20,376 nt of DNA from the IMG/VR virus record IMGVR_UViG_3300004463_000161, positions 1 through 20,376 of that record; one strand, written 5' to 3'. Source of the DNA: a virus. Below, one piece after another: positions 11,851 through 19,695 of this stretch (the stretch's first letter is position 1; every line of letters begins with the position of its first letter). Both the position numbers and the translations under genes were made by a program. Under the pieces are notes generated by a model that made no database searches, was not told the DNA's origin, and was given only the letters and a program-made list of their open reading frames with translations.

Positions 11851-11886
11851 CAATGATAATAACACTAACCCCCGAGTGAATCGGAT

Positions 11887-11895
11887 TGCTATGAT
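11887..11895 (+). promoter_or_regulatory. Candidate extended -10 promoter of the lysis genes
   Basis: TGCTATGAT is an extended -10 (TGN plus TATGAT, one mismatch) in the 77-base gap between the glycosyltransferase and the first lysis gene. It has the same TGC-extended form as TGCTACAAT at 15090. No -35 match is visible. Evidence is moderate at best. Confidence 0.3.
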
Positions 11896-11927
11896 CCTAT
11901 TGTCGTCTACCAGCTACAGAAAGAAAC

Positions 11928-12155
11928 GTGTGTTTGGTGTGGAATTTCACGAGAGAAACAAAAGAGACACTCGCTTACATCCTTGGGGGATTGGGGTTCC
12001 TCCACGAATTGATAATAGCAAACGCCGAGAGGCCGTTTTTGTTGACGGCCTCCTTAGCCTTGATGGGATTCCCATTGGTGTTGAAGGGCGAGGAGCGATT
12101 GAAGAACGGAAAGGACGAGAAGAAATTATCCCAAGAGGAACCCATAGAAAAATAA
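11928..12155 (+). CDS. Small membrane protein in the lysis region
   Basis: A 75-residue protein read from GTG 11928; TTG 11934 and GTG 11937 are alternative starts and no binding site clearly chooses. A hydrophobic hairpin, LAYILGGLGFLHELII and then FLLTASLALMGFPLVL (about residues 15-55), is split by NAERP. A charged Lys/Glu-rich tail follows. The HE...ERP.LL...LMG.P order resembles small membrane proteins found beside lysins in actinobacteriophages. It may assist the holin or be a second holin. The stop overlaps the next start as TAATG. A longer open frame on the same strand covers this region, but its product looks like out-of-frame protein here. Confidence 0.55.
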   Translation: MCLVWNFTRETKETLAYILGGLGFLHELIIANAERPFLLTASLALMGFPLVLKGEERLKNGKDEKKLSQEEPIEK

Positions 12156-12250
12156 TGTGGTGTGGTCAACATAGAGTGTTTAGTACCGCATATGTATCAA
12201 TTGCGCTCTTTATTGGTGTTGTTTGGCAACTATTGTCTTGGATAGGTTAA
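12155..12250 (+). CDS. Tiny single-span membrane protein (31 residues)
   Basis: ATG 12155 shares its A with the TAA of the upstream gene (TAATG), and its own TAA lies one base before the next ATG. The product begins MWCGQHRVF and continues as one hydrophobic span, STAYVSIALFIGVVWQLLS, ending WIG. Its exact fit between two membrane protein genes, coupled at the upstream end, argues that it is translated. AGAGGAA upstream is 16 bases away, too far to act directly, so reinitiation is the likely mode. A holin, antiholin or pore-accessory role is inferred from position and size. It is below the length that gene finders usually report. Confidence 0.45.
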   Translation: MWCGQHRVFSTAYVSIALFIGVVWQLLSWIG

Positions 12251-14781: not shown

Positions 14782-14991
14782 ATGTCATCTACTACCAAAA
14801 CAGATAAGAAGCAAGAAGAAGCAGAAAAACTATATAACTTCAAGTTCGATAACTTTACCAAGTTACTTGGACCTGATTGGCCTGTAGATGACATTCGTGC
14901 CCTCGCTGAATCAGAGATTTATGACGGGGAATTAAAAGATTTATTAGAGAATGGCTGTTCGAAAGAATTAGCCCTTAAAATCCTCCTCTAA
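14782..14991 (+). CDS. Small acidic protein of unknown function
   Basis: ATG 14782 follows GGGGGTAAG, a good binding site; TTG 14770 lies upstream of that site and is less likely. The 69-residue product has a charged N-terminus (TKTDKKQEEAEKLY) and a compact helical part with LLGPDWPVDDIRALAES and LLENGCSKELALKILL. I do not recognise it. It is the last gene before the transcriptional break, and its final codons and stop form the 5' arm of a GC-rich hairpin, so its mRNA end is structured. Confidence 0.65.
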   Translation: MSSTTKTDKKQEEAEKLYNFKFDNFTKLLGPDWPVDDIRALAESEIYDGELKDLLENGCSKELALKILL

Positions 14992-14998
14992 GAGGAGG
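14982..14998 (+). repeat. Perfect GC-rich hairpin at the stop codon
   Basis: CCTCCTCT (14982-14989) and AGAGGAGG (14991-14998) are exact complements, folding as a 7-bp stem with a TAA loop that is the stop codon itself. No T-run follows, so it is not an intrinsic terminator. The 3' arm is a perfect Shine-Dalgarno sequence hidden in the stem. Confidence 0.65.
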
Positions 14999-15006
14999 TT
15001 GGTAGA

Positions 15007-15056
15007 AGCAAAATGGTATCCGTCCCCACCGTTTTGCTCCCTTTCTGATGGGACGG
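15007..15056 (+). ncRNA. Candidate H-type RNA pseudoknot
   Basis: Stem 1 pairs 15007-15017 with 15028-15038 (11 pairs, one of them T-G). Its 10-base loop holds CCGTCCC (15020-15026), exactly complementary to GGGACGG (15050-15056), giving a 7-bp stem 2. Connecting loops are 2, 1 and 11 bases, which suits a classical H-type pseudoknot. The GGGACGG strand is also needed by the downstream terminator, so the two folds exclude each other. It resembles an attenuator or riboswitch layout, but no known riboswitch class was recognised. It could also be a stable small RNA. Confidence 0.45.
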
Positions 15057-15089
15057 GTCGTTACGGTGTGTCGGCCCGTCCCTCTTTTA
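15050..15089 (+). terminator. Intrinsic terminator
   Basis: GGGACGGGTCG (15050-15060) pairs with CGGCCCGTCCC (15072-15082), an 11-bp stem with one T-G pair and an 11-base loop, followed by TCTTTTA. It ends the late/lysis transcript before the next promoter. Confidence 0.8.
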
Positions 15090-15104
15090 TGCTACAATAT
15101 GGGC
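15090..15104 (+). promoter_or_regulatory. Extended -10 promoter driving a leaderless mRNA
   Basis: TGCTACAAT (15090-15098) is an extended -10 with one mismatch to TATAAT. Six bases follow and then ATG 15105, exactly where transcription should begin. This spacing is the known signature of leaderless genes in actinobacteria. No -35 match is seen, which an extended -10 can tolerate. Confidence 0.6.
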
Positions 15105-15674
15105 ATGGACAGTAACAGTACAGCTACCATCTTGCCCATACATACGTTCACAGGCAAGAAATTTTACCCACTTGATCCTAAAGTGGAAGACATTTCCATC
15201 ATAGACATAGCTCACGGGCTATCAAATGTATGTAGATATGGTGGACAATGTAAGGAATTTTATAGCGTTGCACAGCACTCAGTTTTGTGTGCCATTGAAG
15301 CCCCATATGAATATAAGAAGTGGGCGCTTCTTCATGATGCTAGTGAGGCATACATCGGAGATATTGTTCACCCCCTTAAGGTGACAGAAGAATACGATGC
15401 TTACAGAGTAGCCGAGGAAATATTGATGAAGGCTATCTGTGAGCGTTTTGATCTGCCCACAGAAATGCCAGAAGAGGTTCATGAGATTGACCTATTGATT
15501 AGACACACAGAAATGAGAGACTTTGGCTCTGTGTCTGAAGAGTTCTGGAAGGACGAGCCAATGATGGAGTATACTATTAAGCCTCTGGAACCTAAAGAGT
15601 CAAAAATTTTATTTTTGAAGGAGTTCTCTAGGTTATTCGGATATGGTACAGATGCGTGGAGATATTTTGAATGA
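15105..15674 (+). CDS. HD-domain nucleotide hydrolase (YfbR-like)
   Basis: From ATG 15105 the protein has 189 residues. It is an HD-superfamily phosphohydrolase: IIDIAHGLSNVCRYGG, FYSVAQHSVL and LLHDASEAYIGDI give the metal-binding His/Asp set, and IDLLIRHTEMRD near the C-terminus supplies the late Asp. Related phage and bacterial proteins are 5'-deoxynucleotidases, so a role in shaping the dNTP pool is likely, in keeping with the thymidine kinase encoded in the same operon. ATG 15105 sits at the predicted transcription start, so translation would be leaderless. ATG 15048 and 15099 are in frame, but they lie in the terminator or at the promoter. The stop overlaps the next gene as ATGA. Confidence 0.82.
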   Translation: MDSNSTATILPIHTFTGKKFYPLDPKVEDISIIDIAHGLSNVCRYGGQCKEFYSVAQHSVLCAIEAPYEYKKWALLHDASEAYIGDIVHPLKVTEEYDAYRVAEEILMKAICERFDLPTEMPEEVHEIDLLIRHTEMRDFGSVSEEFWKDEPMMEYTIKPLEPKESKILFLKEFSRLFGYGTDAWRYFE

Positions 15675-16465
15675 AGCTAGCTGTCTTTACTCCGACATAT
15701 AGACCAGGCGGACTTGATGTTCTAGAGGCATCACTAATGCGTCAGACATTCAGGGATTTTGTCTGGGTTGTAAGCGACCAAAGATTTCTTGAGCGCAAGG
15801 AAACATGGGCGCAAATTCTACAACGAATAGATTTTCCAGCCGTCTTTGTTAACCGAGGGATTGTGGACGGAAACAAAAGAAATCTATGCGCCATGTATAA
15901 TGCTGCTGCTGAGTATGTGGTGGACGACGGATTTGAAATGCTTATCTCTTTGCAGGATTATATTTATGTTCCAGAAGATGGATTAGAAAAATTTATTTCT
16001 GTGCATGAGCAGTATCCAAACGATTTGTTGACAGGGGTCACACATATATCGCGCGATCCCTTTCCTACCAAGGTGGTTGATCCAGACGGAGACTATACAA
16101 TTTTTGAGAAGCCATACACAGACAAGCCTAATCATTTTTCTTGGCAAGATATTAGGGTGACAGAACTTTATGTTGTCGGACCTGATGTTCTTCCCGTAGA
16201 GACAGGACATTGGGAAGCTAATTGGGCTGCTGTTCCTTCTAGCATATTAAAACAGGGAGTAAGATGGGACGAAGAATATGATAGAGGGATCGCCTATGAG
16301 AATATGGACTTTGCGCAGAGAGCAAGAGAGCAGACAGGAGCTAAGGTTATGCTGGACAAAACAAATGTAGCAATCTCTCTGCCGCATAAAGATTATTTTG
16401 AAGGTGAAAGAGAGGAGATAATGGAATTCTCCAACAGAGAATACTATGAATCAAAATGGCATTAA
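15671..16465 (+). CDS. GT2-like glycosyltransferase
   Basis: A 264-residue protein has the GT-A opening KLAVFTPTYRPGGLDVLEAS and QTFRDFVWVVSDQ, then NKRNLCAMYNAAAEYV, and LISLQDYIYVPEDGLEKF where the usual D-x-D is replaced by LQDY (D96). The second half has a W/E-rich acceptor region (TGHWEANWAAVPSSIL) and YENMDFAQRAREQTGAKV, typical of GT2 enzymes after the catalytic centre. It probably uses a nucleotide sugar to extend a glycan; sugar and acceptor are unknown. The missing canonical D-x-D leaves some doubt about activity or metal use. ATGA overlap with the HD hydrolase shows it is in the same operon. Confidence 0.75.
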   Translation: MKLAVFTPTYRPGGLDVLEASLMRQTFRDFVWVVSDQRFLERKETWAQILQRIDFPAVFVNRGIVDGNKRNLCAMYNAAAEYVVDDGFEMLISLQDYIYVPEDGLEKFISVHEQYPNDLLTGVTHISRDPFPTKVVDPDGDYTIFEKPYTDKPNHFSWQDIRVTELYVVGPDVLPVETGHWEANWAAVPSSILKQGVRWDEEYDRGIAYENMDFAQRAREQTGAKVMLDKTNVAISLPHKDYFEGEREEIMEFSNREYYESKWH

Positions 16466-17748: not shown

Positions 17749-18407
17749 ATAAAAAATATAATAGAAAATTAAAAACATATTTTTTTCTGCGTGACAACGA
17801 GTGGGACGAAATAGCATACGAAGATGCGTTTAAACATCAGTATCATCTTCCCAAATTAAAAAAAGAACCCGATAGCGTGCTTGATCTTGGATCAAATATA
17901 GGTCTGACTATGGCTCACTATAGATATCTGTGGCCAGCAGCAAAAATTCAAGGATATGAAATCGACCCGGAAAATATTTATCTATCTAAGTTAAATGCAT
18001 ACGGAGAAATAGTTAACAGAAGAGCCGTTACAACAATAAAATATCCAGCATATAAGGCTAAGGGAAGTCCTCAAGCATACAAGGCAGAAAATCATTTTCT
18101 GTTGCGAGGAGAATTTGAAAGAATTATTGGGGTGACACTTGACCAGGCTCTAAATGGAATGAATACAAGAGACGGATGTGTTGATTTTGTTAAGATGGAT
18201 ATCGAGGGTGAAGAATATAAAACCTTACAATCTCATGGAGCATGGAGCAATAGAATAAGAAATCTTCTAGTGGAATGCCATGGGGAAGATGAAGACGACA
18301 CAGAAGAAAAAACAGAAGAGATTGAAGGATTCCTAGAAGAACAAGGATTTCAGGTGGAAAAACACGAACCGCATTGGAGTGCGCTATACGCATGGAAGAA
18401 AATATAA
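17733..18407 (+). CDS. FkbM-family SAM methyltransferase
   Basis: The 224-residue protein has a SAM-binding motif SVLDLGSNIGLTMAHYRY (D51 onward), an acidic loop with GYEIDPENIYLSKLNAYG (E76), and the family hallmark VDFVKMDIEGEEYKTL (D156-I-E-G). FkbM-type enzymes typically O-methylate sugars or related hydroxyl groups, so this one is likely to cap a glycan made by the adjacent transferases. The segment from about residue 185 is very acidic (GEDEDDTEEKTEEIEGFLEE). The start overlaps the upstream gene by 16 bases. The overlap with the downstream gene is also 16 bases. Confidence 0.85.
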   Translation: MGLELNKKYNRKLKTYFFLRDNEWDEIAYEDAFKHQYHLPKLKKEPDSVLDLGSNIGLTMAHYRYLWPAAKIQGYEIDPENIYLSKLNAYGEIVNRRAVTTIKYPAYKAKGSPQAYKAENHFLLRGEFERIIGVTLDQALNGMNTRDGCVDFVKMDIEGEEYKTLQSHGAWSNRIRNLLVECHGEDEDDTEEKTEEIEGFLEEQGFQVEKHEPHWSALYAWKKI

Positions 18408-19130: not shown

Positions 19131-19695
19131 ACTTGAAGTAATAACTGGACCAATGTTCTCTGGCAAGACAGAGGAATTGCTGCGTCGTTTGAATCGAGAA
19201 ATGATCGCAGGAAAAGTCATAAGGTTGTTTAGACCAGAAATTGACACCAGATATGAAAAAGGTTATGTTATTTCTCATAATGGTGGAAAACTTCCGGCAG
19301 AGGAAGTTCCAGATGCATTTGAGATATGGGATAGATCAATAAGAAGTTCGCAAGCCTCTGTAGTGGGAATTGATGAGGCACAATTTTTCAACAATAACGA
19401 TTTAGAATATTTTGTCGGAGAGTTATTAAGAAAAGAAAATAATTTTAAAGTTATTGTCTCTGGACTTGACAAGGATTTTGCCCTGCAAGACTTTGGCGCA
19501 ATACCTCGCTTAATGGTTCTTGCTGATCGTTTAGATAAATTAAATGCTGTGTGCAATAAATGTGGTGCGGATGATGCCTCATTTACGCAGCGACTTGTTG
19601 ATGGAAAACCAGCCGCATTTGACGGCCCAACAATTTTAGTAGGAGGGACGGAAACTTATGAAGCTCGTTGTAGAGGATGTTTCGAAATTGGGTAG
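19123..19695 (+). CDS. tdk: Thymidine kinase (TK1 type)
   Basis: The 190-residue enzyme phosphorylates thymidine to dTMP with ATP, feeding phage DNA synthesis. It has a P-loop GPMFSGKT (9-16), the catalytic Glu in DEAQFF (E85), a lasso-region segment with VSGLDKDFALQDFGAIP, two zinc cysteine pairs (C144/C147 in CNKC and C183/C186 in CRGC) and the typical C-terminal VGGTETYEARCRGCF. Length is normal for bacterial TK1 enzymes and all key residues are present, so it is probably active. It overlaps the small zinc-ribbon gene upstream by 8 bases and the next gene by 38 bases. Confidence 0.95.
   Translation: MSRLEVITGPMFSGKTEELLRRLNREMIAGKVIRLFRPEIDTRYEKGYVISHNGGKLPAEEVPDAFEIWDRSIRSSQASVVGIDEAQFFNNNDLEYFVGELLRKENNFKVIVSGLDKDFALQDFGAIPRLMVLADRLDKLNAVCNKCGADDASFTQRLVDGKPAAFDGPTILVGGTETYEARCRGCFEIG

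Follow-up and report, generated by a model that had tools for sequence, protein, structure and literature searches.

A candidate structured RNA of three predicted hairpins between the late genes and a deoxynucleotidase gene in a group of uncultured phages

What is the role of the hairpin-rich stretch that separates the late genes of an uncultured phage from the gene of a deoxynucleotidase? The locus lies in IMGVR_UViG_3300004463_000161, of which we analyzed positions 1 to 20,376 (the window, 20,376 nucleotides long; all unlabeled coordinates refer to it). The block upstream comprises structural genes, genes for two cell-wall hydrolase-like proteins (NlpC/P60 and SLT domains) and a probable holin gene, judged by sequence and without a family match. 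Its last gene encodes a protein for which there was no Pfam or PHROG family match and ends at a stop codon inside the loop of the hairpin H1 (Table 1). The gene that follows encodes an HD-type phosphatase, the Met-Asp start of which is also kept in a close relative (L002) and the translation of which probably begins leaderless at 15105. Based on the letters of the window, a sequence-only reading had proposed that the stretch between them switches between a pseudoknot and a terminator. It named a plain terminator beside a separate structured RNA as the fallback.

Table 1. Features of the boundary between the late block and the phosphatase gene (window coordinates)
Feature	Position	Strand	Basis or comparison
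69-aa protein, last gene of the structural/lysis block	14782..14991	+	ORF; conserved in L002 and L040
H1, 7-bp hairpin with 3-nt loop, CCTCCTC-TAA-GAGGAGG	14982..14998	+	7/7 standard pairs, six sequences
TTGG and bulge TAGA, 5' side of P2a, the outer stem of H2	14999..15006	+	GG pairs with CC 15040-15041
H2, 11-bp hairpin with 10-nt loop ATCCGTCCCC, stem 15007-15017/15028-15038	15007..15038	+	Sequence and comparison
Short frame MVSVPTVLLPF*, 11 codons	15013..15048	+	Close clade only
CGTCCC, loop motif of H2	15021..15026	+	Invariant in 6/6 sequences
GCTCCC, invariant 3' end of H2	15036..15041	+	C 15039 bulged; CC 15040-15041 pairs with GG 15001-15002
T, 11-bp GC-rich terminator-like stem	15050..15082	+	Arms GGGACGGGTCG (15050-15060) and CGGCCCGTCCC (15072-15082)
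U-rich tail of T, TCTTTTAT	15083..15090	+	Sequence; weak or degraded in L002 and L067
Putative extended -10 promoter TATGCTACAAT (TGnTAnnnT)	15088..15098	+	6 nt 5' of start codon
HD-type deoxyribonucleoside 5'-monophosphate phosphatase	15105..15674	+	phrog_318, E 4.6e-63

The window found no match in a nucleotide search among phage records, and tblastn searches with portal and terminase proteins returned relatives at 20-26% only, for the portal mostly phages of Gordonia and Bacillus. A WhiB gene was absent from the phage records examined. Searches with the phosphatase, portal, lysis and small proteins, combined with a motif search, identified two close relatives, IMGVR 3300005466_000025 (L002) and 3300005535_000071 (L040), the contig of the latter stopping within the element. 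A phosphatase profile, applied to records sharing the portal protein, added the distant relatives 3300037264_007326 (L063), 3300025312_000222 (L067), 3300001372_000001 (L065) and 3300005836_000009 (L066). L065 and L066 are identical across the compared stretch, which leaves three distinct distant sequences. L067 and L065 are relatives with a common H1, so that the number of independent lineages is three. The comparison set thus consists of six sequences (the window, L002, L040, L063, L067 and L065), five of them complete and L040 partial.

The element occupies the same site in the relatives, 3' of the last gene of the structural/lysis block and 5' of the deoxynucleotidase gene. As far as each contig reaches, the order is small late gene, H1, H2, T, TRTGCTAnnnT and phosphatase. 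In L067, about 90 nt separate the stop codon from H1, and the phosphatase gene of L063 is preceded by a short leader bearing a Shine-Dalgarno-like sequence rather than starting leaderless. Identity between the window and L002 is 93% across H1 and H2 and 60-74% in the flanking genes. A covariance model of H2 built from the close clade and L063 matches L065 and L067 weakly (E 0.016 and 0.29, respectively, in 28 kb), so that the homology of these two is based on synteny and architecture.

H1 is located at or 3' of the last stop codon, and its pairing is kept while its sequence is not. In a hand alignment, which leans towards structure and was used for pair counts after MAFFT had misplaced the distant members, 7/7 pairs are present in 6/6 sequences, formed by three unrelated arm pairs (CCTCCTC/GAGGAGG, CTTGCTG/CAGCAAG and TCTAGGC/GCCTAGA, by lineage). 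Each arm pairs with its own partner (-8.6 to -11.5 kcal/mol), whereas combining arms from different lineages gives -4.3 to +1.2 kcal/mol and no proper pairing. In H2, the base AGC/GCT is invariant, and the inner stem varies with its pairing mostly kept. The outer stem P2a covaries in the distant relatives (GTGG/CCAC, GCGG/CCGC and ACGG/CCGT; GG/CC only in the window), and the conserved bulge is TAGN or TTG. The combined length of H1 and H2 is 60-63 nt in all six sequences. T has 10-13 pairs in the 5/5 sequences that reach it, again with arms unrelated between lineages; by the same energy comparison, these arms match within a lineage but not between lineages.

Compared with dinucleotide shuffles, the window fold has a z-score of -3.9 for H1 and H2 and of -5.3 with T included; scores for H1 and H2 range from -3.2 to -5.2 across 6/6 sequences. 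H1, H2 and T coexist in the single-sequence minimum free energy (MFE) fold of the window (-50.0 kcal/mol). G-U pairs occur on the + strand within the stems of H2 (window, L002 and L065), H1 (L040) and T (window and L002). There are no A-C pairs in the + strand stems, and the G-U pairs would be A-C on the - strand, which indicates an RNA read in the direction of the genes. The comparison thus shows a predicted structure of three hairpins, with pairing retained between lineages, together with its strand, conservation and position. The window had no Rfam 15 match at gathering score, and three loci had none at E up to 1. Maintenance of pairing despite sequence change, the conserved unpaired CGTCCC and the lack of an Rfam match make the element a candidate for a new family of structured RNA, in agreement with the earlier description of a structured RNA of no recognized class between two gene blocks and next to a terminator-like stem.

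The individual hairpins described from the window alone were largely as reported. The perfect hairpin at the stop codon is present with 7 pairs, as is the 11-pair hairpin at 15007-15038, the loop of which, CCGTCCC (15020-15026), is complementary to GGGACGG (15050-15056) within the 5' arm of T. The terminator stem sharing GGGACGG also exists, with 11 pairs (15050-15060/15072-15082) rather than the 8 reported. It was the proposed interplay of these parts that the relatives did not support. According to this proposal, pairing of the loop CCGUCCC with GGGACGG blocks T, and transcription enters the next block. The complementarity in the window extends over 7 bp, loop lengths permit an H-type pseudoknot, and L002 retains the pairing by means of a G-U pair (GGGGCGG), with duplex energies between loop and T arm of -16.7 (window) and -16.3 kcal/mol (L002). 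A 7-nt complement arises in 2.5% of cases when the loop is shuffled and in 0.5% when the downstream stretch is, and is thus only mildly unusual. However, the 5' arm of T reads GGAAAGGGTAG, ATGACCGGAG or GAGAGTGAGCAAA in L063 and L067/L065, without GGGACG, whereas the loop CGTCCC is unchanged. Pairing between H2 and the 5' arm of T does not surpass shuffles in L063, L067 and L065 (p 0.31, 0.51 and 0.32); the corresponding p values are 0.02 for the window and 0.05 for L002. The homologue test suggested earlier, a search for compensatory changes between 15020-15026 and 15050-15056, thus gave an unchanged loop and a missing partner. In L002, the change from GGGACGG to GGGGCGG is compensated in the 3' arm of T (A-U to G-C) and not in the loop. 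T itself, at -21.6 to -22.5 kcal/mol, is more stable than the duplex with the loop, and H1, H2 and T form together in MFE folds. A loop obliged to pair with the 5' arm of T would be expected either to follow changes in T or to keep that arm constant. Because the loop is invariant while T changes freely, the switch does not explain the conservation of the element, and we regard it as quite improbable, although it may still occur within the close clade. Among generally known systems, H-type pseudoknot riboswitches of the preQ1 or SAM-II type share with the window the potential for pairing between loop and downstream sequence, but this pairing is not conserved here, and no Rfam match was found at E up to 1. 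The comparison instead favors the fallback of a plain terminator beside a separate structured RNA.

The short frame overlapping H2, which the sequence-only reading had assigned a possible part in tipping the balance, is present in the close clade (MVSVPT[V/I]LLPF, with TGA, TAA or TAG as the stop codon), but it is not a general feature and has no counterpart in L063, L067 or L065. It could belong to a leader-peptide attenuator, in which H1 hides a Shine-Dalgarno sequence until it is opened at the upstream stop codon, the 11-codon frame is translated by reinitiation, and the 5' arm of T is covered by a ribosome that has reached the stop codon of the frame. Conservation of the peptide and of a stop codon in the close clade, and the presence of GAGGAGG or GGGGAGG in close-clade H1, are consistent with this. 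Yet L063, L067 and L065 lack both the frame and the Shine-Dalgarno sequence in H1 and keep the hairpins. In addition, the Shine-Dalgarno sequence is 14 nt from the ATG, which lies within the H2 stem, and 3/4 of the purine combinations at the stop position give stops by chance. As in attenuators of the TnaC or trp type, a short frame precedes a terminator in the close clade; unlike in these, the frame is missing from distant relatives, and the element has neither a regulatory codon run nor a kept, shared alternative fold. We consider the attenuator as a whole highly improbable. Two further candidates were rejected: read-through of the upstream stop codon into the short frame would be in frame in the window only, since L002 and L040 have one extra base, and a phosphatase extended N-terminally in frame from 15048 is not kept, the distance being 57 nt in the window and 58 nt in L002.

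An RNA antiterminator with a direct cis effect on RNA polymerase would place H1 and H2 in the company of HK022 put, which binds the zinc-binding domain of the RNA polymerase beta' subunit and suppresses termination (PMC9378689). Some late transcription would then pass T and later terminators. Within about 62 nt, H1 and H2 make up two bulged stem-loops that carry conserved unpaired bases, immediately 5' of a terminator-like stem. Their size and two-stem layout resemble those of put, which has two bulged stem-loops in about 60-70 nt (PMC9378689). By contrast, put sits downstream of early promoters and the element at the end of the late block, and an antiterminator directly 5' of a conserved terminator would call for regulation; we find this explanation unlikely. 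The DNA itself could be the functional form, with T and the loop repeat as operator half-sites of a phage regulator at the deoxynucleotidase promoter and RNA folding as incidental. T ends 4-7 nt before TRTGCTA, where a -35 element or operator would be expected, and there is no good -35. The sequences of T and H1 are, however, unrelated between lineages, and the + strand G-U pairs of all three hairpins point to selection acting at the RNA level, which leaves a DNA-level element with very little probability. The element also resembles ordinary intrinsic terminators, including clusters of hairpins after stop codons (PMC8355165), in having several hairpins ≤15 nt apart downstream of the final stop codon of an operon, with a stable stem at the end of the series that, in some members, is followed by a U-rich tail. 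It differs from them in the invariant loop and base of H2, in the retention of H1 and H2 in this order in distant phages, and in T, which in L002 and L067 is not followed by a good U-tract.

A transcription boundary is the simplest explanation of the position, T and the promoter, and we believe that the element is probably a conserved structured RNA that forms the 3' end of the late transcript ahead of a terminator and a promoter. H1, H2 and T would be independent + strand hairpins that end the transcript of the structural and lysis genes, with T as a putative transcription terminator and insulator just 5' of the extended -10 promoter. The U-tract after T is fair in the window (TCTTTTAT) and L063 (ATTTTATG) and poor in L002 (AACTTTAT) and L067 (CTAAATAT), so T may be weak or factor-dependent as a terminator. 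TRTGCTAnnnT is found in the same position in 5/5 complete elements, at the 4-7-nt distance from T in all, and no -35 element is recognizable by TATGCTACAAT in the window. In most of the phages, the -10 element lies 6 to 9 nt 5' of the first codon, which implies little or no leader, and this predicted promoter would start a deoxynucleotidase mRNA that is apparently leaderless in most of them. TATGCTATAATATAATTATG at another site in each of two distant relatives (L100 9642 and L102 16528) appears to be an additional leaderless promoter of the same type.

In such a boundary, H2 would present the invariant loop CGUCCC above a base that is kinked by the bulge UAGN or UUG opposite C. No conserved partner for the loop was present within about 800 nt, which suggests that CGUCCC is read in trans. 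We speculate that H2 is a recognition site for a trans-acting factor, whether RNA polymerase, an RNA-binding protein of host or phage, or an RNA, and that this factor would set the efficiency of termination at T or the stability of the 3' end of the late mRNA; a direct effect on RNA polymerase as with HK022 put, or protection of the mRNA 3' end, may be involved. More specifically, H1 and H2 could form a new family of phage cis-acting RNAs, unrelated to lambda N/Q or put, in which reading of CGUCCC by RNA polymerase or a phage factor decides between a stop at T and run-on into the nucleotide-metabolism genes. We view this as possible but doubtful; if H1 and H2 did control read-through, they would be a rare case of control by RNA at the passage from late to nucleotide-metabolism genes. 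With these findings, a poorly known phage group gains a candidate family of structured RNA, and CGUCCC is a concrete loop motif whose partner can be sought. They also illustrate that a persuasive alternative pairing in a single genome may be due to chance, as distant relatives reveal.

When 2.9 million viral contigs were scanned with a pattern of the element, only members of this phage group matched; as the pattern was derived from known members, this shows specificity, not completeness. An element-pattern scan of genomes returned 20 stretches, 0 of which had the H1-H2-T layout by inspection. Palindromic repeats in two bacterial contigs (L080 2668-2778 and L103 1400-1580) contain GGGGACGG/CCGTCCCC, which resembles the motif. 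These repeats appear to be of the REP type and account for some of the false matches. An exact search for GGTATCCGTCCCCACC gave 21 stretches, with the element in two known phages only and missing from the rest, and a search for CCGTCCC..GGGACGGG..CCCGTCCC gave 17 contigs on a motif check alone. Model R1 and the portal protein had no match in 396 genomes of one phylum, in a search run without a positive control, so that this negative carries no information. No second copy of the element was seen in the same phages.

Other hairpins were observed in these phages. Upstream of position 1355 of L067, 5' of H1, GGCAGGGAGGGCGGGA can pair with the H2 loop and 3' end in the predicted fold, and this is not seen in the other sequences. 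A 9- to 10-bp hairpin GAGGCCG...CGGCCTC is present in the gene region of the window (12029-12052), L008 (12912-12939) and L095 (4455-4480), and two reading frames of the window (11876-12250 and 11928-12155) overlap at it. In a 102-kb relative (L093, corresponding to G001 20001-40000), strong hairpins at 14969-14994, 16425-16454, 18008-18037 and 19350-19381 lie a few to a dozen nt 5' of purine-rich, Shine-Dalgarno-like stretches, and look like a repeated 5'-UTR device.
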